From positions 1 to 64,000 of the forward strand of contig NZ_JANQIM010000044.1 of NCBI RefSeq assembly GCF_028282165.1: a DNA stretch of 64,000 bases, read 5' to 3'. This stretch comes from Winogradskyella sp. Lineage in GTDB: Bacteria; Bacteroidota; Bacteroidia; Flavobacteriales; Flavobacteriaceae. Positions 3,504-50,931 of the stretch are shown here, piece after piece. A model generated the notes under the pieces. It worked only from the letters and a program-made list of their open reading frames with translations, was not told the DNA's origin and made no database searches. Each line of letters begins with the position of its first letter. Position 1 is the stretch's first letter. The translations under genes and the position numbers were made by a program.

Positions 3504-3601
3504 AATTACATTTTTGTTTAAAAATTGTTATGCAAATATGACACTCATTTTCTATATATTTTTATATATGTTTCTTATGATATATATAAACAACATTTAT
3601 A

Positions 3602-3613
3602 GAAAACGTTTTC
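3602..3613. promoter_or_regulatory. 12-bp palindrome upstream of icd, LacI-operator-like
   Basis: GAAAACGTTTTC is a perfect palindrome with a central CG, the shape bound by LacI/CcpA-type repressors. It lies in the 181-base gap between valS and icd, 98 bases upstream of the icd ATG. The rest of the gap is very AT-rich (runs of TATATA) with no gene. Chance occurrence in AT-rich DNA is possible. Confidence 0.3.
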
Positions 3614-3684
3614 GTAGCAGGTATTTGTTGAAAATTTGTTAATTTAAAGTAAGAAATGGACTAAAAATTTTTAAGAAATTTTAA

Positions 3685-6318
3685 CTAATTAAGACTGTCT
3701 AAACTTGCTTTTATAGTCTCAATCTTTGCTAAAGCATCGGCTTCTTTCTTCTTTTCTGAAGCTACAACTTGCTCTGGTGCATTGTTGACAAAACGTTCAT
3801 TTGATAGTTTTTTCTGAACAGATTTTAAAAAGCCTTCCGTATAGTTTAATTCGTCTGTAAGCTTTTTTATTTCGGCCTCCACATCAATATTTCCCTCCAT
3901 CGGAATGAAATATTCATTAGACTTTACGCGATAGGTTAAAGCACCTTCAACAGCTTCAGAGACATAACGGAAACTTTTAAGATTACCCAATTTTGAAATG
4001 ACTTCGTCAAATGTAGGATTTACCTCTTCATTATTAACCACTGAAAAATCTACAGCGTCCTTAAAAGCTATACTTTTTTGCTTTCTTATATTCCTGATCC
4101 CTGAAATAACCTCAGATGCAAAATCAAACTCAGAAATTAATTGCTTATCAACAGGCTTAGATACTGGCCAAGTTGAGATGATTAAGGCGTCTTTTGGTGA
4201 GCGTTCCTCAATAAATTGCCAAATCTCTTCGGTTAAGAAAGGCATAAATGGATGAAGAATTTTTAAGTTATTCTCAAACAATCTTATCACTTCATTGTAA
4301 GTCGTTTTATCAATTGGGTTTTGGTATGCCGGTTTAATGATTTCTAATAACCATGAGGCAAAATCGTCCCAAATTAACTTATATGTGGCCATAAGGGCAT
4401 CACTTAAGCGATACTTACCGAAGTGATCTTCTATCTCTGCGATAGTTTTCTGGAATTTAGACTCAAACCACTCTAAAGCTATTTTACTAGAATTTGGTTG
4501 CTCTAAAGATACATCAACATCCCAGCCTTTAACTAATCTGAAGGCGTTCCAAATCTTGTTGGCAAACTGCTTTCCTTGCTGGCATAAGGCTTCATCGAAC
4601 ATTAAATCGTTTCCAGCGGCTGAACTTAAAAGCAATCCTACCCTAACGCCATCTGCACCGTACTCCTCGATCAACTTTAGGGCATCTGGTGAATTCCCTA
4701 ATTGCTTGCTCATTTTACGGCGTTGTTTATCCCTAACTAAGCCTGTTAAATATACATTTTCAAAAGGACGCTCGCCTTTATATTCATAACCAGCTATAAT
4801 CATACGCGCTACCCAAAAGAACAGAATATCTGGACCAGTTACCAAATCATTGGTTGGATAATAATACTTTATATCTTCATTTTCAGGATTTCTAATACCA
4901 TCAAATACACTAATTGGCCATAGCCATGAACTAAACCAAGTGTCTAATGCATCAGCATCGCGAGTTAGATCTGAGATATTAAGTTGTGGATCTGCCGCTT
5001 TTTTCCTAGCTAATTCAAGTGCTTCCTCAATGGTCTCTGCAACCACAAAGTCTTCTTTCCCATCTCCGTAGTAATAGGCCGGAATCTGTTGTCCCCAAAG
5101 TAGCTGACGAGAAATATTCCAATCGCGAATGTTTTCCATCCAATGACGATAGGTGTTTTCAAATTTCTTAGGGAATAGTTTTACATCGCCATTTTTAAGT
5201 ACCGCATCTAATGCCGGCTTTGCCAAGTCTTTCATCTTCAAAAACCATTGATCACTCAGTCGTGGCTCTATGATGGCTTTTGTACGCTCCGATATTCCAA
5301 CACGGTTGTTATAATCTTCTATTTTAGCAATATGTCCTAAAGTTTCGAGTTCTTTGACTATGCCTTTGCGAACTACGAAACGGTCTTGCCCTTCATAGTG
5401 CAAACCATAACTATTAAGGGTAGCATCGTCATTAAATATATCGATAACTTCGAGATTATGCTTATCGCCCAAAACCTTGTCATTTTCGTCATGTGCTGGT
5501 GTTACTTTCAAACAACCTGTACCAAATTCTACATCGACATAATCATCTTCTATAATTGGAATTACACGATTACAAATAGGCACAATAGCTTTTTTTCCTT
5601 TAAGATTTTGATGTCTTGGATCTTCTGGATTAATACAAATAGCTGTATCTCCAAGAATAGTCTCAGGCCTTGTCGTAGCAATGGTTAAGCTTTCATCTGC
5701 ACCTTCAATCTTATAATTTAAATAATAAAGCTTCCCTTGTTTTTCAATATATTCTACTTCCTCATCAGAAAGTGTTGTTTTGGCTTCAGGATCCCAATTC
5801 ACCATTCTATAACCACGGTAGATCAGTCCTTTGTTATATAAATCAACAAATACCTTGATGACTGCTTCAGACATATCGTCATCCATCGTAAACTTGGTAC
5901 GATCCCAATCGCAAGAACACCCTAATTTTTTAAGCTGCTCTAAAATAACGCCTCCATATTCTTCTGTCCATTGCCATGCATGTTTTAAGAATTCTTCGCG
6001 GGATAAATCATTTTTATCAATACCTTCTGCCTTTAACTTAGCTACCACCTTAGCTTCTGTTGCTATGGATGCGTGATCTGTTCCTGGTACCCAACAGGCA
6101 TTTTTACCCAATAGCCTAGCACGCCTAATCAATACGTCTTGTATGGTGTTATTTAACATGTGTCCCATATGCAATACACCTGTTACATTAGGAGGTGGTA
6201 TAACAATAGTGTATGGTTCTCTTTCGTCTGGTGTAGAGTGAAAAAAATTATGCGCCATCCAGTAGTTGTACCACTTTTTCTCTACTGATAATGCGTTATA
6301 TTTTGACGGGATTTCCAT
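3685..6318 (-). CDS. valS: Valyl-tRNA synthetase
   Basis: The 877-residue class I aminoacyl-tRNA synthetase charges tRNA-Val in the cytoplasm. The HIGH signature appears as HMGH at residues 50-53, just after PPPNVTG, and the KMSKS loop as KMSKQ at residues 535-539. In between lies the editing (CP1) domain with [13 protein letters not shown]. An anticodon-binding domain follows, and the last 70 residues form the charged coiled coil typical of ValS ([16 protein letters not shown]). The length matches the bacterial family. It is a stand-alone gene with its own promoter-like box 31 bases upstream of the ATG. Confidence 0.98.
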
Positions 6319-6997: not shown

Positions 6998-8332
6998 AAA
7001 GGCATTGTCTAATTTAAATTTATATATCATTTCTTCTCCATTTCGCTCTACCTTTAACCTGACGTTCTTTCCCGTCTTACCATGAAAAACAGCATTTACT
7101 TCTGGTAATTTATAATTATAAACTTCTTTCCCGTTTATACTGATTAAAATATCTCCTACCCTTAAACCAGAAGCAAAAGCATTAGAAGATTTCCTCAACT
7201 CAACAATTTCATAAATAGGTTTTAGTGCAATCCTATAATCTACAGAAAAATCTATTTGTACCGCACTGCTATTAGTGTCGTTTGAGTTATACCTCTCTTT
7301 TCTAGGTATTCTAATTTGCTCTTTGACAAATCGGGTGCCATTATATTCTAAAACGATTCCGCTATTATTATAGGTAAAAGGATCCCTATACAAGCTATTC
7401 TTTTTAAGGTGCAATTTTTGGCTATTGTAATCAAAAAATAAATTAAAGCGTTTTAAAACATCCCCTCCTAAACTCCCGCTTCTGCCCTTGTAAACTCTTG
7501 TTAGGTCTACAGACATGGTATCTGGATAAGCTACATTGACATTATCTAAAATAAAATCATTCAACTTAAAAGTATTTACTTTAGACCTCTTGCCATAAAC
7601 CGATCCACTTAATCCTTTTCCTAAATAGTCCAAAAAGAACAAATCCTTATCTGGTATTAAGCCCTTTTTTTCATTTTCAAAGAGCCACAATGCATCACTA
7701 CTGCCTGTATCTATAAGAAGCTTAACAGATTTTTGGCCCGTATTAATTGTAACTAAAGCATCTATGTAAGGTTTTTTCTTATAGATATCGATAGGGACGG
7801 TCTTCCATTTCGCAGAAGCTTTCGGCTTAAATACTTTAGGTTTATAAAGCCTGATGAATTGAGAACTATAATTGATCTCCACCACAAAATCCTTAAATAC
7901 ATCATGACCAATAATACCATGTACCAAAACACCAAGTCTTGGAGTAAAGTTTATGGCATTATCATAAACCACATACAGGTCTTTATTTACAGCAACCGCA
8001 TCCCCTATTTTAATTCTATTGCTACCCGATTTTAATGCTTTTAGCTTACCATCTCCTCCTAATCCATGCAAAAAGAAGGTTTTTGTGTTTTTAAGATCAA
8101 GGGAATCACGTTCCGTTAAATTAAAAAGAATAGGTTTACTCACTCCTGTATCTAACACAAAGGACAATGTTACACCATTAATCTCTACAGGAATTATGAT
8201 AAGATTACTGACAAACTCGAAATCAATTTTTTTGCTAACCTCATTTTTGAGAAAGAAATTATTTTGGGCTTTTATTAATGAACAATTAAAAAGTAAAAAA
8301 AGCAAAAAAATATGTCTAATGAGCAGTTTCAA
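6971..8332 (-). CDS. Exported aspartyl protease (two retropepsin-like domains) with C-terminal PDZ
   Basis: The 453-residue protein has an N-terminal hydrophobic segment resembling a signal peptide. A first retropepsin-like half carries the active-site motif VLDTGVS (about residue 60) and a second carries LLIDTGSS (about residue 206), so one chain can supply both catalytic aspartates. The C-terminal 100 residues form a PDZ domain (SGLRVGDILISINGKEV). Related clan AA proteins with PDZ are common in Bacteroidota and presumed periplasmic or surface proteases; the substrate is unknown. It is a single gene, divergent from the aminotransferase and convergent with the DUF1573 gene. Confidence 0.85.
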   Translation of the reverse strand: MKLLIRHIFLLFLLFNCSLIKAQNNFFLKNEVSKKIDFEFVSNLIIIPVEINGVTLSFVLDTGVSKPILFNLTERDSLDLKNTKTFFLHGLGGDGKLKALKSGSNRIKIGDAVAVNKDLYVVYDNAINFTPRLGVLVHGIIGHDVFKDFVVEINYSSQFIRLYKPKVFKPKASAKWKTVPIDIYKKKPYIDALVTINTGQKSVKLLIDTGSSDALWLFENEKKGLIPDKDLFFLDYLGKGLSGSVYGKRSKVNTFKLNDFILDNVNVAYPDTMSVDLTRVYKGRSGSLGGDVLKRFNLFFDYNSQKLHLKKNSLYRDPFTYNNSGIVLEYNGTRFVKEQIRIPRKERYNSNDTNSSAVQIDFSVDYRIALKPIYEIVELRKSSNAFASGLRVGDILISINGKEVYNYKLPEVNAVFHGKTGKNVRLKVERNGEEMIYKFKLDNAFKKIEPSNN

Positions 8333-8445
8333 CTTTGATTGATTTTAAATGAAGTTACAAATCTTTAGCAAACAAGTTATTTTAAACATCATTTTTTACA
8401 TAAACTTTAAGAAATTTCAGAACTTAGCACTTTAAAACTATTACG

Positions 8446-9636
8446 ATGCCAAATATTTCAAAAAAAGGTATTGACATGCCTGAATCGCCAATTAGAAAGT
8501 TGGTGCCCTTTGCAGAGGAAGCCCATAAAAAAGGAAAAACTGTCTACTATCTCAACATTGGCCAACCAGATATAAAAACCCCAAAAGTAGCACTAGATGC
8601 TATTAAAGCAAGTACCTTAGATATTTTGGCTTATTCGCGGTCCGAAGGTTCAGAAACATATCGAAAAAAAATCGCAGGGTATTATGAACGTAATTCCATA
8701 GATGTTTCCCATAATGACATTATTGTAACTACGGGAGGTAGCGAAGCGTTACTGTTTACTTTCGGAAGTATAATGGACCAAGATGATGAAATTATTATTC
8801 CAGAACCTTTCTATGCCAATTACAATGGATTTTCTACAGCTTCTGGCATTAATATTGTGCCTGTAATATCCAAGATCGAAAACAACTTTGCTTTACCACC
8901 AATTGAGGAATTCGAAAAATTAATTACCCCAAAAACCAAAGCCATTCTAATTTGTAATCCTGGCAACCCAACAGGTTACTTATACTCTAAAGAGGAAATC
9001 AAAAAATTAGCAGCTATAGTTAAAAAACATGATTTGTTTTTGATTGCGGATGAAGTATATAGAGAATTTGTTTACGACGGTATATCACATTATTCTATCC
9101 TTGAAGAATCGGGATTAGAGGAACATGCCATAGTTATCGATTCGGTATCCAAACGCTATAGCATGTGTGGAGCACGTATCGGTTATTTAGTTTCAAAGAA
9201 CAAAGCCGTTATTAGTACGGCCTTAAAATTTGCACAGGCTAGACTAAGTCCTCCTACACTAGCCCAGATTGCCAGTGAGGCTGCGTTAGACACACCTCAA
9301 AGTTATTTTGATGATGTTAAAGAAGAGTATGTAAAACGCAGAAATACGCTCATTGAAGGCTTAGAGAGTATTCCTGGAGTAAAAGTGGCCAAACCAAATG
9401 GTGCATTTTATTGTATTGCCGAATTACCAGTGAAAAATTCGGACGACTTTGCTAGGTGGCTACTAGAATCGTTTGATCATGAAAACGAGACGGTTATGGT
9501 TGCACCAGCTGCTGGCTTCTACTCCACACCTAATGTCGGTTTAAACCAGATTAGAATTGCTTATGTCTTAAAGGAAGATAGTTTAAAAATCGCAATAAAA
9601 ATATTGGCAGAGGCTCTAAAAGTTTACAAAGACTAA
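8446..9636 (+). CDS. Class I PLP-dependent aminotransferase
   Basis: The 396-residue protein is a fold-type I aminotransferase. It has the NPGNPTG substrate/PLP loop (residues 171-177), the PLP-anchoring ADEVY (201-205) and the Schiff-base lysine K236 in DSVSKRYSMCGARIGY. C-terminal substrate arginine regions follow. The family includes aspartate, aromatic and glutamine aminotransferases; the exact substrate cannot be read from the sequence. It overlaps the start of murB by one base (TAATG-type junction), so the two are co-transcribed although not functionally linked in an obvious way. Confidence 0.9.
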   Translation: MPNISKKGIDMPESPIRKLVPFAEEAHKKGKTVYYLNIGQPDIKTPKVALDAIKASTLDILAYSRSEGSETYRKKIAGYYERNSIDVSHNDIIVTTGGSEALLFTFGSIMDQDDEIIIPEPFYANYNGFSTASGINIVPVISKIENNFALPPIEEFEKLITPKTKAILICNPGNPTGYLYSKEEIKKLAAIVKKHDLFLIADEVYREFVYDGISHYSILEESGLEEHAIVIDSVSKRYSMCGARIGYLVSKNKAVISTALKFAQARLSPPTLAQIASEAALDTPQSYFDDVKEEYVKRRNTLIEGLESIPGVKVAKPNGAFYCIAELPVKNSDDFARWLLESFDHENETVMVAPAAGFYSTPNVGLNQIRIAYVLKEDSLKIAIKILAEALKVYKD

Positions 9637-26481: not shown

Positions 26482-26489
26482 TATTTTTG
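26482..26489 (+). promoter_or_regulatory. -7 box at the head of the kynurenine operon
   Basis: TATTTTTG matches TAnnTTTG. Its last three bases are the first possible kynU start codon (TTG 26487), so transcription from this box would begin downstream of that codon. The -33 position has TTT/TTA rather than TTG. Confidence 0.45.
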
Positions 26490-27791
26490 TTACAAACCGA
26501 TAAAAACAATCTTACATTGTCCGACTACAAACTTGGTCTAGAATACGCTCAACAACAAGATGCATTAGACGAATTATCAAGCTATAGGCAACAATTTCAT
26601 ATTCCAAAAGATAAGGAAGGAAATGAACTTATTTATCTATGCGGTAATTCGCTAGGACTACAGCCAAAATCTACAAAAGACTATATCAATCAAGAGTTAG
26701 ACGATTGGGCAAATTTGGGTGTCGAAGGTCATACCCATGCCAAAAATCCTTGGATGCCATATCATGAGTTTTTAACCGAAGCCACGGCAAAGTTAGTAGG
26801 TGCAAAACCCATTGAAGTAGTCACCATGAATTCGTTAACGGCCAATCTTCATTTTATGATGGCGTCGTTCTATCAGCCTACAAAGGAGCGCTATAAGATT
26901 GTTATTGAAAGTGATGCATTTCCATCCGATAAATATGCTGTAGAATCTCAGTTGCGTCATCATGGCTATGATGATAAGGAAGGATTGATTCTTTGGAAAC
27001 CAAGAGCAAATGAAGAGTTGTTACATTACGAAGATTTAGAGCAAATCCTAGAAATCCATGGTCGTGAAATTGCCCTAATCATGATCGGTGGAGTCAATTA
27101 CTATACAGGTCAGTTTTTCGATTTAAAACGCATTACAGCACTAGGTCATAACTATGGCTGTGTGGTTGGTTTTGATTGTGCTCACGGTGCAGGAAACGTT
27201 AATTTGGATCTTCATAATTCTGGTGCCGATTTTGCGATATGGTGTACTTATAAATATTTAAATTCTGGGCCGGGAAGTCTATCGGGCTGTTTTGTACACG
27301 AGCGACATGCCTACAATAAAAACTTGAATCGCTTTACAGGATGGTGGAGTCACAATAAGGAAACACGCTTTAATATGCGCCATGAATTTGATGTATTACC
27401 AGGAGCTGAAGGTTGGCAATTGAGCAACCCACCAATTCTATCAATGGCAGCTATAAAAGCATCACTAGATATGTTCAATGAAGTGGGTATGGGAAAGCTT
27501 GTTGCAAAATCCCGAAAGCTTACGGGCTATTTTGAGTTCTTATTAAAGAATTTAGGCGAAGATGTCATCCAAATCATAACACCCGAAAACCCTGATGAAC
27601 GTGGTTGCCAGTTATCCATTCAAGTGTTGAATGCAGATAAATCATTGTATCAAAAATTAACAGCCTCTGGAGTTATAAGTGATTGGCGAGAACCCGACGT
27701 CATAAGATGCGCTCCTGTACCTTTATACAATTCATTTGAAGATGTCTATCAAATGGTTGAAAAAATGAAAGACATATTAAACAATAACTAA
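26487..27791 (+). CDS. kynU: Kynureninase
   Basis: The PLP enzyme (up to 434 residues) cleaves kynurenine or 3-hydroxykynurenine to anthranilate or 3-hydroxyanthranilate plus alanine. Visible are LCGNSLGLQPK, GVNYYTGQFFDL, GFDCAHGAGNV and the Schiff-base lysine K256 in TYKYLNSGPGS, all kynureninase-specific. No ATG start exists: an in-frame stop lies at 26448-26450 and the only near candidates are TTG 26487 and TTG 26517. The second fits family length and the position of the -7 box better. It is the first gene of the kynurenine catabolic operon. Confidence 0.96.
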   Translation: MLQTDKNNLTLSDYKLGLEYAQQQDALDELSSYRQQFHIPKDKEGNELIYLCGNSLGLQPKSTKDYINQELDDWANLGVEGHTHAKNPWMPYHEFLTEATAKLVGAKPIEVVTMNSLTANLHFMMASFYQPTKERYKIVIESDAFPSDKYAVESQLRHHGYDDKEGLILWKPRANEELLHYEDLEQILEIHGREIALIMIGGVNYYTGQFFDLKRITALGHNYGCVVGFDCAHGAGNVNLDLHNSGADFAIWCTYKYLNSGPGSLSGCFVHERHAYNKNLNRFTGWWSHNKETRFNMRHEFDVLPGAEGWQLSNPPILSMAAIKASLDMFNEVGMGKLVAKSRKLTGYFEFLLKNLGEDVIQIITPENPDERGCQLSIQVLNADKSLYQKLTASGVISDWREPDVIRCAPVPLYNSFEDVYQMVEKMKDILNNN

Positions 27792-27793
27792 AT

Positions 27794-27819
27794 GTCACCT
27801 TGATCGCAGTCGAGGTGAC
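27794..27819 (+). repeat. Palindromic repeat hairpin before kmo
   Basis: GTCACCTTGA (27794-27803) pairs with TCGAGGTGAC (27810-27819) with one T-G pair and a six-base loop. It fills the kynU-kmo gap and ends 9 bases before the kmo ATG. Confidence 0.75.
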
Positions 27820-27828
27820 GGAATAACA

Positions 27829-29250
27829 ATGAGTAATAAAAAACAAAACATATTGATTATCGGAGGAGGGCTTTGTGGAAGTCTTCTAGCTTTACGATTA
27901 GGTCAAAGAGGGTATAATGTCACAGTATACGAGATGCGCCCAGATTTACGCACCACAGATATTTCTGCTGGCCGTTCTATAAATTTGGCATTTTCGGATC
28001 GTGGTAACAAAGCCATGAAACTCGTTGGCATTGAAGACAAAGTGAAGAAACTTTGTATCCCTATGAATGGACGTATGCTCCATGATAAAGAAGGGAATAC
28101 ATTCCTATCAAATTATAGTGGTAGAGACTATGAATATATCAATTCAATATCCCGAGGAGAACTTAATGGTTTATTACTCACGGAAGCTGAAAAGCATAAA
28201 AATGTGAGTATTCATTTTAATAAAAAATGCTTGTCGGTTGATTTTGAAAAAACCACAGCACTATTTCAAGATTACCATACCAAAGATGAATTTATTGAAG
28301 ATGCCGATTGTATCATTGCTACCGATGGCGCAGGTTCTGCATTGCGACAGAGTTACTTTTTAGAAAAAAAATTCCTCTTCAGTTTTTCCCAACAATGGTT
28401 AACCCATGGTTATAAAGAATTGAGTATTCTTCCTAACGAAGACGGCAGTTATAAAACCTATAAAAATGCTTTACATATCTGGCCAAGAGGAGATTTTATG
28501 GTAATTGCGCTACCTAATTTAGACGGTAGCTTTACGGTAACCTTGTTTTTGAGTTTTGATGAGGGTGAATACAATTTTAATAATCTCACCACACCCGAAA
28601 TCGTTACCGAATTCTTTGAGAAAGAATTTCCAGATGCCTTAAAATTAATGCCCAATCTTGTTGAAGACTTTTTCGAAAACCCAACAGCCCCTTTAGGCAC
28701 TGTTAAATGTTCACCTTGGCATTACAAAGGCAATACTTTGCTCATGGGAGATTCAGCACATGCCATTGTTCCGTTTTATGGACAAGGCATGAATGCTTCA
28801 TTTGAAGATGTCGTGGTCTTTGATGAAGTGTTGGACCAGCATGAAGGTAACCTGCCTGACGGCGAGGCAGGTTGGGAAAAAGTGTTTTCAGAATATGACA
28901 AAATCAGAAAGAAAGATACAGATGCCATTGCGGATTTGGCCATTGATAATTTTCATGAAATGAAAGATCATGTGGCCAACCCTATTTTCCAAGAAAAACG
29001 AAAAATTGAAATGGCTCTAGAGAAAGAATTCCCAGAAGATTATTCTTCAAAATACAGCTTGGTGACCTTTAACGAAGATATAGGTTACAGAGAAGCTATG
29101 ATAAGAGGAAGGGCGCAAGATAAAGCTATATTAAATATGTTATCAGATGGTGTGATTTCCACAGAAGATGACATCAATGATATTTTAGATAAAGTAAAAA
29201 CTGAAACTGAAGCAATTTTGGAGGATGACAAAATTGCTGGATTACAGTGA
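27829..29250 (+). CDS. kmo: Kynurenine 3-monooxygenase
   Basis: The 473-residue flavoprotein hydroxylates kynurenine to 3-hydroxykynurenine. It has the FAD/NAD(P)H fingerprint GGGLCGSLLALRLGQRG, the RSINLAFSDRG signature of KMO, CIIATDGAGS and the second FAD motif LLMGDSAHAIVPFYGQGMNA. The C-terminal extension (about residues 380-473) is also as in KMO. Residues 341-348 (N-L-P-D-G-E-A-G) are encoded by a palindromic repeat that has inserted in frame. The start ATG follows a repeat hairpin. Substrate flows to kynureninase encoded upstream. Confidence 0.96.
   Translation: MSNKKQNILIIGGGLCGSLLALRLGQRGYNVTVYEMRPDLRTTDISAGRSINLAFSDRGNKAMKLVGIEDKVKKLCIPMNGRMLHDKEGNTFLSNYSGRDYEYINSISRGELNGLLLTEAEKHKNVSIHFNKKCLSVDFEKTTALFQDYHTKDEFIEDADCIIATDGAGSALRQSYFLEKKFLFSFSQQWLTHGYKELSILPNEDGSYKTYKNALHIWPRGDFMVIALPNLDGSFTVTLFLSFDEGEYNFNNLTTPEIVTEFFEKEFPDALKLMPNLVEDFFENPTAPLGTVKCSPWHYKGNTLLMGDSAHAIVPFYGQGMNASFEDVVVFDEVLDQHEGNLPDGEAGWEKVFSEYDKIRKKDTDAIADLAIDNFHEMKDHVANPIFQEKRKIEMALEKEFPEDYSSKYSLVTFNEDIGYREAMIRGRAQDKAILNMLSDGVISTEDDINDILDKVKTETEAILEDDKIAGLQ
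28849..28873 (+). repeat. In-frame palindromic repeat inside kmo
   Basis: AACCTGCCT (28849-28857) and AGGCAGGTT (28865-28873) form a perfect 9-bp stem around GACGGCG. The segment is GC-rich compared with its surroundings and adds exactly eight codons (residues 341-348) between an EG and a WEKVF segment that I expect to be nearly contiguous in homologues. Confidence 0.65.
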
Positions 29251-29257
29251 CGTTTTT

Positions 29258-29308
29258 GTCATTCCGCACGGTTCCACTGAGCGTAGTCGAAGTGTGATGC
29301 GGAATCCA
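29258..29308. repeat. Composite inverted repeat in the kmo-amnD gap
   Basis: ATTCCGCA (29261-29268) and TGCGGAAT (29298-29305) flank CACTGAGCGTAGTCGAAGTG (29275-29294), whose own CACT/AGTG ends can pair. It is a repeat-type element upstream of a second, smaller hairpin in the same gap. Confidence 0.65.
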
Positions 29309-29334
29309 TTATAAATCGAAGTCAAATCAAAAAG

Positions 29335-29354
29335 ATTCCTGCTTTTGCAGGAAT
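29335..29354 (+). repeat. Palindromic repeat hairpin before the 2-aminomuconate deaminase gene
   Basis: ATTCCTGC (29335-29342) and GCAGGAAT (29347-29354) pair perfectly around TTTT. The hairpin ends 10 bases before the ATG at 29365. The flanking GATTCC...GGAATGACA context recurs at 31947 and, slightly altered, at 32824. Confidence 0.8.
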
Positions 29355-29364
29355 GACAACTATT

Positions 29365-29769
29365 ATGAGTAACAAAACCGTAACACCAAGAGGAGCTTAT
29401 CCACATGTAAAACAAGTAGGAGATTTTATTTTCGTTTCTGGCACAAGTTCTAGACGACCAGACAATACTATTGCTGGCGTCGACATCATAGATAAGATGG
29501 GTACCAAGCGTTTAAATATTGAAACACAAACCCGTGAGGTACTTCAAAACATAGATAAGAATTTACAAAAAGTTGGGGCTTCGTTAAAGGATGTTGTTGA
29601 TGTGACCTCTTTTCTAGTAAACATGAACGATTTTGCAGGTTACAATAAGGCCTATGCCGAGTTCTTTGATGCAGCAACTGGTCCTGCAAGAACCACAGTG
29701 GCTGTACACCAGTTACCACATCCGGATTTGGTGGTGGAGATTAAAGTGATGGCTTATAAGAAACAATAA
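29365..29769 (+). CDS. amnD: 2-aminomuconate deaminase (RidA/YjgF family)
   Basis: The 134-residue protein is a RidA-fold deaminase that closely follows the Pseudomonas 2-aminomuconate deaminase pattern ([48 protein letters not shown]), which generic RidA proteins do not share. The conserved Arg in GPARTTV and Glu in VVEIKV are the usual ligand-binding residues. It hydrolyses 2-aminomuconate to 4-oxalocrotonate and ammonia, downstream of the dehydrogenase encoded at 30431. An earlier in-frame ATG at 29353 lies inside the repeat hairpin and is less likely. Confidence 0.9.
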
Positions 29770-29770
29770 A

Positions 29771-30429
29771 ATGAAGTTTTTATTTCTTTTTTGTTGATTA
29801 TGTTACAAAATTCATGTTCTGAAGATCAAGATAAATTGCAAGACAAAAAACAAGCTACAATGGATGACATCTCAAAGTTGGGTAAAGTTTATGAAATGTT
29901 AGATGAGGATATTTTCTGGTATATTGTTGATAAATCAGTTACTGAATCAAATTCTCAGGAGGAACAAGAGAAAATCCTTATCAATGAGATAACTAAACTT
30001 CCATTAAAAGATATAATTGGATTTAGATTAAGGACAGATAAACTGCTATTTGACACCTATAATTCCGAAATGTGGTGTGCAGGATATCTAATGAATCAAG
30101 GGTGTTCTGACGATGGTTTTGAATATTTCAGGAATTGGATAATTTCAAGAGGAAAAGAAACTTATTACAACGCAGAGACCAACCCAGATTCGTTGATAAG
30201 CCAGATTGAACATAAAGCATATGGCTTTTATGAATTTGAGGGATTCTGGTATGTAGCTTTAGAAGCTTTCAAAACGAAAACCGGACAAGAGTTATACGAT
30301 TACATTGATTATGACAATTTTAAAACAAGGGAGGGCAATTACCCTAATTTTGAGTTTACTTGGAAAGAGAAAGAACCTGAATCTATGAAAGCCATATGCC
30401 CAAAACTTTACAAGGAATTTTGGAATTAA
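29771..30429 (+). CDS. DUF4240 lipoprotein with a frameshift in its signal peptide
   Basis: The body (from about 29859) is a DUF4240 domain: DEDIFWYIVD, then MWCAGYLMNQGCSDDGFEYFRNWIISRGKE. An ATG at 29771, one base after the previous stop, reads MKFLFLFC and hits a stop at 29795. The run of six T at 29787-29792 is one base short: with seven T the frame would read MKFLFLF-LLIMLQNSCSED, a plausible lipoprotein signal joined to the open frame. As it stands only TTG 29791 or internal ATG codons serve the long frame. This may be a real frameshift, slippage or a sequencing error. Function is unknown; it sits 1 base before the aldehyde dehydrogenase gene. Confidence 0.7.
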
Positions 30430-30430
30430 A

Positions 30431-31870
30431 ATGAATATTAAAAACTACATAAACGGCAATTTTCAAAATCCAATCTCCAACGAATGGATTGATAACTATA
30501 ATCCTTCAAATGGTGAGGTTTATGGAGAAATTCCCAATTCATCCAAAGCCGATGTTGAAGAGGCTTACAAAGCCGCAAAATCTGCCTTTAAGCAATGGTC
30601 ACAAACGACGTTGGAAGAACGTAGTCGTATCCTCATAAAGATTTCAGAATTATTAGAAGCCAATTTACAACGCTTTGCTGAAGCCGAAAGCAAAGACAAC
30701 GGCAAACCGGTAGCTTTAGCAAAAGCAGTTGATATTCCAAGAGCGGCGAGTAATTTTCGATTTTTCGGTAATGCCATTACCCAATTTGCAAGTGAAAGTC
30801 ACGAGTCTGTTGGGCAAAATGCTATCAATTACACATTGCGTCAACCCATAGGTGTTGTCGGTTGTATTAGCCCTTGGAATTTACCCCTCTATTTATTCAC
30901 TTGGAAAATAGCACCTGCACTTGCTGCGGGAAATTGCGTTGTTGCAAAACCTAGTGAAGTCACACCTATGACAGCATACTTATTGGGAGAAATATGCAAT
31001 GAAGCTGGGCTACTTAAAGGTGTATTAAACATTGTTCACGGTTTGGGCACAACGACCGGACAAGCTATTATTGAGCATCCAGATATTAAGGCTATTAGTT
31101 TTACAGGTGGTACGGCAACTGGTGCGCACATTGCCAAAGTTGCTGCCCCTATGTTTAAAAAACTATCTCTTGAACTCGGCGGAAAAAATCCAAACATCAT
31201 ATTTGCCGATTGTGATTATGAAGATATGTTGAACACAACCGTTCGATCGTCCTTTGCTAATCAAGGACAAATCTGCCTATGTGGAAGTCGCATCTTTGTG
31301 GAAGCTACTATATACAAAAAGTTTAAAACTGATTTTGTAGAAAAAGTAAAGCAGCTAAAAGTCGGTCACCCTTCAGATTCAAAAACAAATATTGGCGCAT
31401 TAGTCTCTAAATCACATTTAGAAAAAGTAAAAGACTATATAAAAATTGCAGAGGAAGAAAATGGCGTCATCCTTTGCGGAGGTCAGGAAGTAAATGTCCA
31501 AGGCTATGAAAATGGTTATTATCTAGAACCAACGGTAATTGAAGTTCCAACGGATGAGTGTCGTGTTAACCAAGAAGAGATTTTTGGACCTGTGGTAACC
31601 ATTATGCCTTTTAATTCTGAAGAGGACGTCTTGCAAATGGCTAATAAGGTAAAATATGGACTGTCGGCTACACTTTGGACCAATGACCTAAAACGGACCA
31701 TGCGAATGAGCAATCAATTACAAGCAGGCATTGTTTGGGTGAATACTTGGATGATGCGCGATCTACGTACACCATTTGGTGGTGTAAAAGCCTCAGGCGT
31801 AGGGCGTGAAGGCGGTTTTGAAGCCTTGCGATTTTTTACTGAACCTAAAAATGTGTGTATTAAGTATTGA
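30431..31870 (+). CDS. 2-aminomuconate 6-semialdehyde dehydrogenase
   Basis: The 479-residue NAD-dependent aldehyde dehydrogenase has the active-site set N150 (SPWN), E248 (LELGGK) and C282 in FANQGQICLCGSR. The QICLC context is that of the ALDH8A1/AmnC group, and the operon supplies the substrate: ACMS decarboxylase makes 2-aminomuconate semialdehyde and the neighbouring AmnD consumes the product. Other ALDH substrates are possible but the context makes this call strong. The start ATG follows the DUF4240 stop by one base. Confidence 0.9.
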   Translation: MNIKNYINGNFQNPISNEWIDNYNPSNGEVYGEIPNSSKADVEEAYKAAKSAFKQWSQTTLEERSRILIKISELLEANLQRFAEAESKDNGKPVALAKAVDIPRAASNFRFFGNAITQFASESHESVGQNAINYTLRQPIGVVGCISPWNLPLYLFTWKIAPALAAGNCVVAKPSEVTPMTAYLLGEICNEAGLLKGVLNIVHGLGTTTGQAIIEHPDIKAISFTGGTATGAHIAKVAAPMFKKLSLELGGKNPNIIFADCDYEDMLNTTVRSSFANQGQICLCGSRIFVEATIYKKFKTDFVEKVKQLKVGHPSDSKTNIGALVSKSHLEKVKDYIKIAEEENGVILCGGQEVNVQGYENGYYLEPTVIEVPTDECRVNQEEIFGPVVTIMPFNSEEDVLQMANKVKYGLSATLWTNDLKRTMRMSNQLQAGIVWVNTWMMRDLRTPFGGVKASGVGREGGFEALRFFTEPKNVCIKY

Positions 31871-31872
31871 AT

Positions 31873-31917
31873 TGTCATTGCGAGAATCCTGATAGCTATC
31901 GGGAGACGTGGCAATCT
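31873..31917. repeat. Composite palindromic repeat after the dehydrogenase gene
   Basis: ATTGC (31877-31881) and GCAAT (31911-31915) flank a 16-base near-perfect palindrome CCTGATAGCTATCGGG (31888-31903). It is a repeat-type element distinct from the GATTCC family that follows it in the same 103-base gap. Confidence 0.65.
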
Positions 31918-31947
31918 CTGGGATTAAAAGAAATAATTAATTAAAAG

Positions 31948-31967
31948 ATTCCTGCCTACGCAGGAAT
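31948..31967 (+). repeat. Palindromic repeat hairpin before the SDR gene
   Basis: ATTCCTGC (31948-31955) and GCAGGAAT (31960-31967) pair perfectly around CTAC. The hairpin ends 6 bases before the ATG at 31974. Confidence 0.8.
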
Positions 31968-31973
31968 GACAAT

Positions 31974-32756
31974 ATGGATTTACAATTAAACAACAAAAAC
32001 GCTCTCGTCTGCGGAAGTACAGCAGGCATTGGCAAAGCCACAGCTTTTGCATTGGCCGAAGAAGGTGTAAATGTCACCTTAGTGGCGAGAAATGAAGAGA
32101 AACTTAAAGCAACTTTAGCTGAATTGCCTCAACATCGCAACCATGATTATATTGTTGCTGATTTTTCTAATCCAAAAGAATTAAAGCAAAAGATTGAAGC
32201 TTATGTAAAAGCATACCATGGCTTTCATGTCCTAGTCAACAACACAGGTGGACCTGCTGGTGGGCCAATATTTTCTGCAAAAGTTGAAGAATTTGAAGCT
32301 GCATTCACCCAACATTTAAAATGTAACCATGTATTAGTTCAAGCTTTAGTTCCTTATATGAAAGACGAAGGCTATGGCAGAATAGTAAACGTCATTTCTA
32401 CCTCAGTAAAACAACCGCTAGATGGTTTGGGAGTGAGCAATACCATAAGAGGTGCCGTAGCAAATTGGAGCAAGACTTTAGCCAACGAATTAGGCCAATT
32501 TGGAATCACAGTAAACAATGTACTTCCAGGCGCAACTGCTACAGAACGGCTAGCACAAATCATTAAAAATAAATCTACCAAGACAGGAAAATCAGAAGAA
32601 GAAGCTTCAGATGCAATGAAAAACACGGTTCCGGCGAAGCGTTTTGCTCAACCTGAGGAAACCGCAGATGCTATTACATTTTTAGCGAGTGCGCGTGCGT
32701 CATATATTAACGGAATTAACTTACCAGTTGATGGTGGACGCACAAAAAGTTTGTAA
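31974..32756 (+). CDS. Short-chain dehydrogenase/reductase, atypical active site
   Basis: The 260-residue Rossmann protein has the SDR cofactor motif GSTAGIG (residues 14-20), an NNTGG structural motif (89-93), the serine region NVISTS (139-144) and a C-terminal PVDGG. Where classical SDRs have YxxxK, it reads S155-N-T-I-R159, so the catalytic Tyr and Lys are replaced; I recall the same feature in a BKR-like SDR subgroup. Its place in the operon suggests action on a kynurenine-pathway intermediate, but no step of the known route needs it. Confidence 0.85.
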   Translation: MDLQLNNKNALVCGSTAGIGKATAFALAEEGVNVTLVARNEEKLKATLAELPQHRNHDYIVADFSNPKELKQKIEAYVKAYHGFHVLVNNTGGPAGGPIFSAKVEEFEAAFTQHLKCNHVLVQALVPYMKDEGYGRIVNVISTSVKQPLDGLGVSNTIRGAVANWSKTLANELGQFGITVNNVLPGATATERLAQIIKNKSTKTGKSEEEASDAMKNTVPAKRFAQPEETADAITFLASARASYINGINLPVDGGRTKSL

Positions 32757-32824
32757 CTTTATAGCGCTTGTTATTCCATATATCATTTGGAATTCAATTC
32801 TGATCAGAAGTGTAATTAAAAAAG

Positions 32825-32844
32825 ATTCCTGCTTTCGCAGGGAT
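32825..32844 (+). repeat. Palindromic repeat hairpin before the 3-hydroxyanthranilate dioxygenase gene
   Basis: ATTCCTGC (32825-32832) pairs with GCAGGGAT (32837-32844), one T-G pair, loop TTTC. It ends 11 bases before the ATG at 32856. Confidence 0.8.
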
Positions 32845-32855
32845 GACAAAGTATT

Positions 32856-33347
32856 ATGAGTAAAATATATCCACCCGTTAATTTCAAAGCATGGATTGAA
32901 GAAAATCGTCATTTGCTAAAACCACCTGTAGGTAATAAAGTCGTCTGGAAAGATGGTGATTTTATAGTTATGGTCGTTGGCGGACCAAATAGTCGTAAAG
33001 ATTATCACTATAATGAAACCCCTGAATTTTTTTATCAGGTTGAAGGAGATATCGTTTTAAAAGTTATAGAAGACGGCAAACCTAAAGACATTCATATTAA
33101 GGAAGGTGATATTTTTTTATTACCACCAGGAATACCACACTCACCACAGCGTGGTCCTAATACCGTTGGTTTAGTTATTGAATATCCAAGACCTGAAGGT
33201 GTAAAAGACAAATTACAATGGTATTCTGAGGAGAATGGAAATTTATTATATGAAGAAGAATTTACTCTAGAAAATATTGAGACTGATATGCCTGCAATTT
33301 TTGACAGATATTACAATAAAATAGAGAAACAAAATTCTAACGAGTGA
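32856..33347 (+). CDS. 3-hydroxyanthranilate 3,4-dioxygenase
   Basis: The 163-residue cupin opens the ring of 3-hydroxyanthranilate to 2-amino-3-carboxymuconate semialdehyde using Fe(II) and O2. The residues match the characterised bacterial enzyme position for position: R47, H51, E57, H95 and R99. The C-terminal rubredoxin-like second iron site of those enzymes (four cysteines) is absent; the protein has no cysteine at all. WYSEENGNLLYEE stands where the first CxxC would be. The product is unstable and is taken by the decarboxylase encoded next. Confidence 0.95.
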   Translation: MSKIYPPVNFKAWIEENRHLLKPPVGNKVVWKDGDFIVMVVGGPNSRKDYHYNETPEFFYQVEGDIVLKVIEDGKPKDIHIKEGDIFLLPPGIPHSPQRGPNTVGLVIEYPRPEGVKDKLQWYSEENGNLLYEEEFTLENIETDMPAIFDRYYNKIEKQNSNE

Positions 33348-33396
33348 GGACAAATCACGAAATCACCTAAAAAGGTGAAGATTGATGGTTTATATC

Positions 33397-33461
33397 ATTC
33401 CTGCAAAAAGTAGGAATTTAAAAAATTACAAACTACTAAGAAATTCTTGTTTTACAGGAAT
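33397..33461 (+). repeat. Two diverged palindromic repeats before the ACMS decarboxylase gene
   Basis: A first copy has ATTCCT (33397-33402) pairing with AGGAAT (33412-33417). A second has ATTCTTGT (33443-33450) pairing with ACAGGAAT (33454-33461) around TTT, ending 8 bases before the ATG at 33470. Compared with the other copies the outer C-G closing the loop has become T-A on both arms. The 122-base gap holds nothing else. Confidence 0.7.
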
Positions 33462-33469
33462 GATATACA

Positions 33470-34555
33470 ATGAATAGAAAAAAGTTAAGAATAAACGGCC
33501 ATTCTCACCTTCTTCCTTATCCTGAGGAAATCCCAGACTTTATGAGAGATAAAGGTATTTTCTGGGTAGATAAGGATCGTAAATTTATGCTTCAAAAAGA
33601 TTGGAATCGTCCTATTACGGATTCCAGCTTCTTTTTAAATGAGAAGTTGGCGTGGATGGACCATTTTAAAATAGACCATGCTGTTGTATTAAACCTATCC
33701 CAACTTTATGGTAATGGTCTACGGCTTGAAGAAATGAAGCAAGCACTGCGATTTCAGAATGATTTTAATGCGCGTATACAACACAATCATCCAAGTAAGT
33801 TTACTTGTGGCTTTGTAGTGCATCCAGGTTTTGTTCGTGGAGCTTGTTGGGAAATTGAGCGTTGTGTAGAAGAATTAGGCCTACAATTGTTATGCTTGCC
33901 GACCCATTACATGGATACCATAGGGACTTGGCGTTGTATTTTTGACGAGGAAAACGAACCCATTTTTGAACTCGCGGACAAATACAATCTAGCGGTAGAA
34001 ATTCATCCCTACGATGGCGAGAAGTTTATAAAATTAGAAAATACCTCTTGGCGCTTCCATCTTATTTGGATGCTTGCCCAATGTGCAGATGCTTATCACT
34101 TTTTAACACTTAATGGCTACTATGAAAAGTATAAAAATATGCGTATTTGCTTTGCGCATGGCGGACAGTTGGCACAAATAAATCTCGGAAGACGTATCCA
34201 AGGCTTTGATGGACGACCAGATCTTTTTGAAGGCAAGAGGCATCCCAGAAAAGCTGTTGGTCATAAAAATATATTCTTCGATACTTTGGTTCACGACACG
34301 GGCTCTTTGGAATTGCTTATTAAAAATCAAGGCTGTAAACAAGTCTTAATGGGCTTGGATGATCCTTATCCCTTAGGAGAAATGGAAAGTGCTAGGCAAT
34401 CCTCATATCCAGGGAAAATTTTAGACTTAGCCATAGACCGAAACATTATTTCTGAGAAAGAACGCAATGCCATTTGGGAAGACAATGTCGTTCAATGGCT
34501 ATGTGGTGACGATGAACGGGCAAAAAAAGAGTTAATTACCCGGATTACTTCTTAA
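33470..34555 (+). CDS. 2-amino-3-carboxymuconate-6-semialdehyde decarboxylase
   Basis: The 361-residue amidohydrolase-fold enzyme decarboxylates ACMS to 2-aminomuconate semialdehyde, diverting it from spontaneous closure to quinolinate. The zinc site is complete: H11, H13 (NGHSH), H179 (VEIHPY), H230 (FAHGG) and D297 (MGLDDPYP), offset by only two or three residues from the Pseudomonas enzyme as I recall it. It is the last gene of the kynurenine operon and feeds the dehydrogenase encoded at 30431. Confidence 0.96.
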   Translation: MNRKKLRINGHSHLLPYPEEIPDFMRDKGIFWVDKDRKFMLQKDWNRPITDSSFFLNEKLAWMDHFKIDHAVVLNLSQLYGNGLRLEEMKQALRFQNDFNARIQHNHPSKFTCGFVVHPGFVRGACWEIERCVEELGLQLLCLPTHYMDTIGTWRCIFDEENEPIFELADKYNLAVEIHPYDGEKFIKLENTSWRFHLIWMLAQCADAYHFLTLNGYYEKYKNMRICFAHGGQLAQINLGRRIQGFDGRPDLFEGKRHPRKAVGHKNIFFDTLVHDTGSLELLIKNQGCKQVLMGLDDPYPLGEMESARQSSYPGKILDLAIDRNIISEKERNAIWEDNVVQWLCGDDERAKKELITRITS

Positions 34556-50906: not shown

Positions 50907-50931
50907 GATTCATATTTCCGCAGGAATGACA
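50907..50931. repeat. Diverged copy of the GATTCC-type repeat
   Basis: GATTCATATTTCC-GCAGGAATGACA resembles the right half of the kynurenine-operon repeat, with the left arm decayed. It lies in the 99-base gap between two minus-strand genes. Confidence 0.5.

Follow-up and report, generated by a model that had tools for sequence, protein, structure and literature searches.

Repetitive extragenic palindromes (REPs) headed by an unpaired CGTC tag have been reported from five phyla, with Neisseria, Rickettsia and Wolbachia among the carriers, apparently without a dedicated transposase as far as the cited sections of that survey go (PMC3733652); the CGTC-1 family described there (Di Nocera 2013) includes Neisseria dRS3. 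In REPIN/RAYT systems, inverted REP pairs are miniatures of an element whose enzyme gene has the same flanking repeats, and the enzyme is a Y1 HUH transposase. GIY-YIG enzymes include structure-cutting nucleases. They also include homing nucleases, and the seg genes of phage T4 carry a GIY-YIG domain as genes of their own in gaps between conserved genes (PMC2988022, in the sections used here). We analyzed a 64,000-nt stretch of Winogradskyella sp. (NZ_JANQIM010000044.1, positions 1 to 64,000; the window), its kynurenine (kyn) operon of tryptophan degradation, and related genomes. Tagged hairpins, mostly in heads-out pairs, are dispersed over junctions that are tight elsewhere; nuclease genes lie inside some pairs, and the ends are identical with and without the gene. 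We consider it likely that these hairpins are inserted mobile repeats, miniature forms of a GIY-YIG element mobilized by its nuclease.

The hairpins in the kyn operon gaps, and one further repeat in the window, are as follows (3-hydroxyanthranilate 3,4-dioxygenase, HAO; ACMS decarboxylase, ACMSD; short-chain dehydrogenase, SDR; aldehyde dehydrogenase, ALDH).

27793..27819, + strand: single TGTC-headed hairpin TGTCACCTTGATCGCAGTCGAGGTGAC in the gap between the kynureninase stop and the kmo start
29257..29307, + strand: left half of a heads-out pair, TGTCATTCCGCAC...TGATGCGGAATCC, loop enlarged; kmo stop 6 nt upstream
29334..29358, + strand: right half, ATTCCTGC REP (CGTC-1 type) with a GACA end; RidA ATG (29365) 6 nt downstream
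31873..31918, + strand: left half of a hybrid heads-out pair, TGTCATTGCGAG type; ALDH stop 2 nt upstream
31947..31971, + strand: right half, ATTCCTGC REP with a GACA end; SDR ATG (31974) 2 nt downstream
32769..32795, + strand: left half, decayed, TGTTATTCC...GGAATTC; SDR stop 12 nt upstream
32824..32848, + strand: right half, ATTCCTGC REP with a GACA end; HAO ATG (32856) 7 nt downstream
33393..33419, + strand: left half of a decayed pair, head TATC replacing TGTC; HAO stop 45 nt upstream
33440..33465, + strand: right half with a GATA end, matching the change of GACA; ACMSD ATG (33470) 4 nt downstream
50907..50931, + strand: additional degenerate ATTCCTGC REP; its tag end lies 5 nt off a stop codon, and at no start

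The preliminary description of this DNA had placed one hairpin before each of the kmo, amnD (RidA), SDR, HAO and ACMSD starts, and we found all five there. Only the kmo gap has a single hairpin; in each of the other four lies a heads-out pair, or what decay has left of one, of which only the right half had been seen. The kmo-gap hairpin is of a separate family, as had been proposed: TGTCACCTTGATCGCAGTCGAGGTGAC is distinct from the ATTCCTGC type, its stem pattern matched 11 times genome-wide (at most 2 mismatches; RNA fold z −3.9), and its stem type also flanks GIY-YIG genes in relatives. We take this hairpin for a leftover copy of family B, whose stem is CTCGAG. The kmo–RidA pair has a plain loop instead of the enlarged one in relatives' loci (L062/L149 and L065), and the HAO–ACMSD pair folds as a single stem (z −6.0 for the whole gap). 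All five junction RNAs were more stable than the mean of their own shuffles (z −1.3 to −6.0), and no Rfam covariance model reached its gathering score in the window.

The ATTCCTGC repeat is dispersed through the genome (4.0-Mb assembly, 98% complete, 48 contigs). When up to 2 mismatches are allowed, the window contains TTCCTGC-N4-GCAGGAA at 3 sites (0.19 expected), and ATTCCTGC-N4-GCAGGAAT matches 58 genome places, the reversed control pattern 1. With the flanks, which are asymmetric (GATTCC...GGAATGACA), the pattern GATTCCTGC-N4-GCAGGAATGACA matched 33 times forward and 28 times in reverse when up to 3 mismatches were allowed, and its control not at all. Merging palindromic double matches leaves 54 distinct copies; ATTCCTGC-N4-GCAGGAAT places that did not match this flanked 25-mer at up to 3 mismatches were left unplaced.

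On the opposite strand, every copy runs from TGTC into an 8-bp stem, a 4-nt loop and the returning stem. The traits given for CGTC-1 in the cited sections of the survey (PMC3733652), namely a CGTC or TGTC tag, an 8-bp stem starting with AT, a 4-nt loop, predominance of head-to-head (HH) dimers and a location mostly between co-directional genes, with Bacteroidetes among the reported phyla, recur here: TGTC-ATTCCTGC on the minus strand carries the unpaired tag, the stem of ATTCCTGC-N4-GCAGGAAT starts with AT, and 15 neighboring ATTCCTGC pairs less than 3 kb apart comprised 9 heads-out, 6 tandem and 0 heads-in arrangements. The unpaired tails were CTC, CTT, CTA or CCA, the CGTC-1 tail being mostly CCA. 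By their sequence, the ATTCCTGC repeats thus fit the published CGTC-1 family as its cited sections describe it (PMC3733652). Two differences stand beside these likenesses: in those sections CGTC-1 uni-REPs lie near the upstream open reading frame (ORF) at a variable distance from the downstream one, whereas the Winogradskyella repeats hug starts as they do stops, and no dedicated transposase was found for CGTC-1, whereas GIY-YIG genes lie between the repeats here, which alone is no bar to membership. A generic search of 463,537 bases for GTC-headed AT-stem hairpins gave 9 candidates, which were the 3 window copies, 2 perfect stems of other types (L116) and 4 mismatched ones of no clear family; GTC was not the top trinucleotide preceding AT-stem hairpins in these bases.

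We then compared the wide and narrow forms of the pairs. Among neighboring ATTCCTGC copies of this genome, the only wide heads-out pairs (341 and 369 nt) each enclose a GIY-YIG gene, the remaining seven being 50–57 nt apart, and a third GIY-YIG gene (C30) is flanked by TGTCATTGCGA-type repeats. PF01541 was found at 13 places in the genome, of which two fall within long frames and one at the edge of a contig, and the GIY-YIG proteins scored 52.9, 52.5 and 63.5 bits (cut-off 22.6), which places them in the superfamily. In the tryptophan biosynthesis (trp) operon, whose trpD, trpC, trpB and trpA genes exceeded the NCBIfam cut-offs (the trpF match fell below), a GIY-YIG gene occupies the trpB/trpA gap between a TGTC REP and a REP-GACA. 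Among relatives, a family-B GIY-YIG gene occupies the ALDH–SDR junction at ten loci, counted after dropping four duplicate genomes, where it is bounded by ends of the kind TGTCACCTCGAGCGCAGTCGAGAGGT and AGGTCTCGACTGCGCTCGACCAGACA or variants of them, and in one relative (L051) the RidA–ALDH junction holds a ATTCCTGC-flanked GIY-YIG gene. One operon of W. thalassocola (L163) has both forms, with exactly matching 26-nt ends: one includes the ORF (8113–8489, 377 nt), and the other, at the kynureninase–kmo junction, lacks it (3829–3886, 58 nt). The genes between the repeats encode about 90–107 aa and, like homing endonuclease genes, sit in intergenic gaps between conserved genes (trpB/trpA and kyn junctions).

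We infer an element of about 370 nt, organized as TGTC-hairpin, GIY-YIG gene, hairpin-GACA, of which the pairs are miniatures lacking the ORF and whose nuclease would act on the hairpin or on the junction. Such an architecture would resemble REPIN/RAYT with a GIY-YIG nuclease instead of a Y1 HUH transposase. Compared with the T4 seg genes as described in the sections cited above, the genes here encode a single domain, are bounded by REP hairpins and have ORF-less copies that are dispersed too. The nearest solved sequence is the single-domain GIY-YIG protein UPF0213 (PDB 1ywl), of similar size and weakly matched (E 0.018). To our knowledge, an association with repeats is not part of the description of UPF0213.

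We investigated the spacing of the repeats to genes called with our own gene caller, using 52 of the 54 copies, all intergenic, and dropping 2 inside genes; a start called inside a repeat was replaced by the next in-frame ATG, and one overlapping stop (−16) was scored as close. In 41 of the 52 copies, no more than 15 nt separated the tag end from the gene boundary it faces. Uniform placement in these gaps would give 13.7 such copies, and 20,000 placement simulations reached 25 at most. Close tag ends were found in 24 of 28 start-facing copies, so the non-random distance to starts that the preliminary description had proposed to look for genome-wide does exist, and equally in 17 of 24 stop-facing copies; untagged ends were within 15 nt of a gene boundary in 4 of 52. 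Even in gaps longer than 110 nt, the tag end was close in 14 of 25 copies (2.5 expected). An orientation count over 713 co-directional gaps from 80 loci, which are related and hence non-independent, gave ATGACA within 20 nt before starts 28 times against 0 for TGTCAT, and TGTCAT within 20 nt after stops 37 times against 0 for ATGACA. The spacing is real, general across the genome and symmetrical between starts and stops, and the kyn operon is not special in this respect. It would be near-constant because the pair fills its gap, which puts the outer ends beside the upstream stop and the downstream start. Insertion into tight junctions of operons is its best reading, and it does not amount to evidence of translational control.

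We compared the same operon junctions in up to 76 relatives per junction, as the preliminary description had advised, and found that hairpin presence and type vary. Among the 332 junctions measured, 95 were no longer than 40 nt; the 199 gaps of 41–600 nt carried both outward heads in 30 cases, a combination found in 0.45% of shuffled gaps, and one head in 44. The kmo–RidA junction was 2–25 nt long in 24 of 58 relatives and held ATTCC-type or ATTACGAG-type pairs in others, while the SDR–HAO junction opened with CTTTA in 25 of 25 tight forms and with CTTTA or ATTTA in 14 of 14 forms with both heads. Different repeat families thus occupy one junction in different species, and together with tight junctions elsewhere this indicates insertion into a small gap. 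These comparisons and the spacing uphold the preferential insertion that had been offered as one alternative at the outset. By our proposal, TGTC-tagged REP hairpins, mostly as heads-out pairs, would have entered tight stop-to-start junctions of the kyn operon whose original gaps measured a few to about 35 nt.

Next, we examined the link between nuclease and repeat in 55 GIY-YIG genes of 70–130 aa that came from retrieved loci and had 120 nt of sequence to either side. Exact inverted repeats of at least 12 nt flanked 19 of the 55 genes but, among 152 small genes of other kinds, just 2 (Fisher 1e-10); the corresponding figures for hairpins of at least 8 bp on both sides were 11 of 55 and 2 of 152. 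On the nuclease tree, which has few columns and weak forks, stem type required 8 changes among 41 labeled genes against a shuffled mean of 23.1 (0 of 200 shuffles as low), and 8 changes against 12.2 among 19 representatives, where the lowest of 200 shuffles gave 9. The 16 ATTCCTGC-flanked nuclease genes lie in 9–11 gene contexts, counted from neighbor similarity. The family-B nuclease at one junction had a median dN/dS of 0.12 (range 0.04–0.32) over 44 pairs of related sequences. Genomes with nuclease subfamily A had a median of 31 repeat copies against 6.5 in those without (p 0.004), in counts that treat related genomes as independent. A ATTCCTGC-flanked nuclease was present in 15 of 37 genomes by retrieved loci only, a sampling that biases the associated Fisher p of 0.00017, which is not among our main arguments.

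Several observations weigh against mobilization by the nuclease. No labeled repeat accompanied 13 of the 55 GIY-YIG genes, stem labels were defined once the flanks had been seen, and linkage alone predicts the agreement of clade and stem, with the F label costing 3 changes. Copy number correlates equally well with genome size (rho 0.50), and genomes with ATTCYGCR-flanked nucleases are not richer in ATTCYGCR repeats (2, 1 and 3 copies, compared with up to 6 elsewhere). Within the 41–600 nt gaps, 125 of 199 are headless, so REP need not account for a large part of what fills the junctions of relatives; no target-site duplication was recognized by eye in the gaps inspected, where divergence is high, and no new insertion event was observed.

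These points leave room for the alternative, doubtful in our view, that another enzyme spreads the repeats and that the GIY-YIG genes came in as passengers, being homing nuclease genes that entered pairs already in place. Gene-less pairs are indeed the majority (7 of 9 heads-out), the free-standing GIY-YIG homing genes of phage T4 occupy intergenic gaps likewise (PMC2988022, same sections), and the copy-number prediction for ATTCYGCR went unrealized; among the ATTCYGCR sites listed, 5 of 50 directly flank a subfamily-A nuclease. Repeated invasion would, however, mix nucleases and stems, whereas nuclease clades mostly retain their stem type at different insertion sites, and the element ends are identical with and without the gene. 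We therefore favor mobilization of cognate hairpins by the GIY-YIG nuclease in place of a Y1 transposase, which would proceed by cutting the hairpin, as a RAYT would, or by cutting the target junction in a form of intronless homing.

A heads-out pair closing as one stem would preserve stop-start adjacency and translational coupling, and selection could keep pairs for this tolerance. RNA folding gave a single closed outer helix in 24 of 29 gaps with both heads, and the HAO–ACMSD heads are altered on both sides (TATC/GATA); such folding is nevertheless expected of any inverted-repeat element, 39 of 67 headless gaps fold likewise, the median exterior length is alike (18 vs 19 nt), and a single matched change was seen. 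We consider selection for folding out improbable, and set it aside as a function since exterior lengths do not differ from those of headless gaps.

Retention of the hairpins as translational or RNA-processing controls ahead of starts, which the preliminary description had offered, along with insulation, on account of their near-constant spacing, appears more improbable still. The start-facing distances and the stability of the junction RNAs agree with control, and for E. coli, down-regulation of translation has been reported for REPs that lie less than 16 nt from a stop (PMC12306157, in the portion citing earlier work). The spacing stands, but stops are hugged equally, and the presence, absence and type of the element differ among species at one junction, where relatives' gaps are tight or differently filled; insertion explains the spacing with no translational role. 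The AGG motif noted near the ribosome-binding position does occur in the stem, but it says little about a ribosome site, since the ATTCCTGC stem itself includes AGGA and, according to the sections cited, Shine-Dalgarno sequences go unrecognized by the ribosomes of Bacteroidia (PMC9976891; PMC6847099). In F. johnsoniae, according to the same sections, initiation is tuned by structure and adenines, with Shine-Dalgarno pairing unused (PMC6847099; PMC9976891). Translational control may occur as a side effect, though the spacing does not require it, and effects on translation or mRNA processing would probably be a by-product of insertion.

Mobilization by a RAYT, as proposed for GTAG REPs in RAYT–REP systems (PMC3733652, in the sections cited), is very improbable and was rejected, since PF01797 was not found in this 98% complete, 48-contig assembly, its presence showed no correlation with the number of repeat copies across 37 genomes (rho 0.09, p 0.59), and 4 of 8 genomes with at least 30 copies had no PF01797 match.

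The genes of the kyn operon are as follows.

26487..27791, + strand: kynureninase (TIGR01814), listed with a TTG start and scanned from 26532
27829..29250, + strand: FAD monooxygenase, kynurenine 3-monooxygenase (kmo) by context
29365..29769, + strand: Rid-family deaminase (PF01042), RidA/amnD
29800–30429 of the window: DUF4240 gene between RidA and ALDH
30431..31870, + strand: ALDH; best NCBIfam match TIGR03216, under its cut-off
31974..32756, + strand: SDR
32856..33347, + strand: HAO (NF009763)
33470..34555, + strand: amidohydrolase (PF04909), ACMSD by context, without an NCBIfam match

We know of no kynurenine role for DUF4240, and the RidA–ALDH junction where it lies is strongly variable in length among relatives. 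An ATG at 29353, inside the repeat (GGAATGACA), is a possible alternative start of the RidA frame. The in-repeat ATG (GGAATGACA) is in frame with the downstream gene, and was picked by the gene caller, in ten copies (window 29353 and those of L067, L074, L076, L077, L081, L082, L089, L095 and L097); a repeat could therefore supply an alternative start codon to the gene that follows it.

Repeat sites are clustered (5 pairs less than 1 kb apart, 0.43 expected). The largest cluster is the trp operon (L070, C7:4900-15600 of this genome) and another is the kyn operon, possibly because both operons are long and tight. Toward the 3' end of the frame called as trpF (3508-4194), one ATTCCTGC REP lies within the gene (L070 4055-4079; C7:8954-8978). 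A REP gap in L073, near G000:C17:7521, apparently contains two tRNA-like fragments in permuted order, and ARAGORN detected no tRNA gene in L073. Three small GIY-YIG genes of this genome adjoin tRNA-Val genes, a tRNA-Asn gene and a tmRNA gene, not REPs (L228, C15:12161; L230, C46:51417; L232, C41:41530), and L228 and L230 fall in a clade apart in the nuclease tree. Some GIY-YIG genes occur amid several tandem REP-like units rather than within single pairs (L257, G021; L263, G003; L259, G018).

A GIY-YIG-linked REP element is probable, and our searches of the open-access literature gave no earlier description of one among the papers listed. We regard it as somewhat probable, judging from these sequences, that Flavobacteriaceae have a second REP system, in which small GIY-YIG nucleases with clade-specific hairpins mobilize REP pairs in trans, target operon stop-start junctions, and are the missing enzyme of CGTC-tagged REPs. 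A nuclease gene between the repeats, together with a stem type that tracks the nuclease clade, makes the missing-transposase question of CGTC-tagged REPs directly testable. As a caution, a near-constant distance between hairpin and start can come from insertion into tight junctions, with no regulation needed. REP insertion would be a source of variation in operon spacing between species, and an element carrying a GIY-YIG gene is a possible answer to how such repeats spread.

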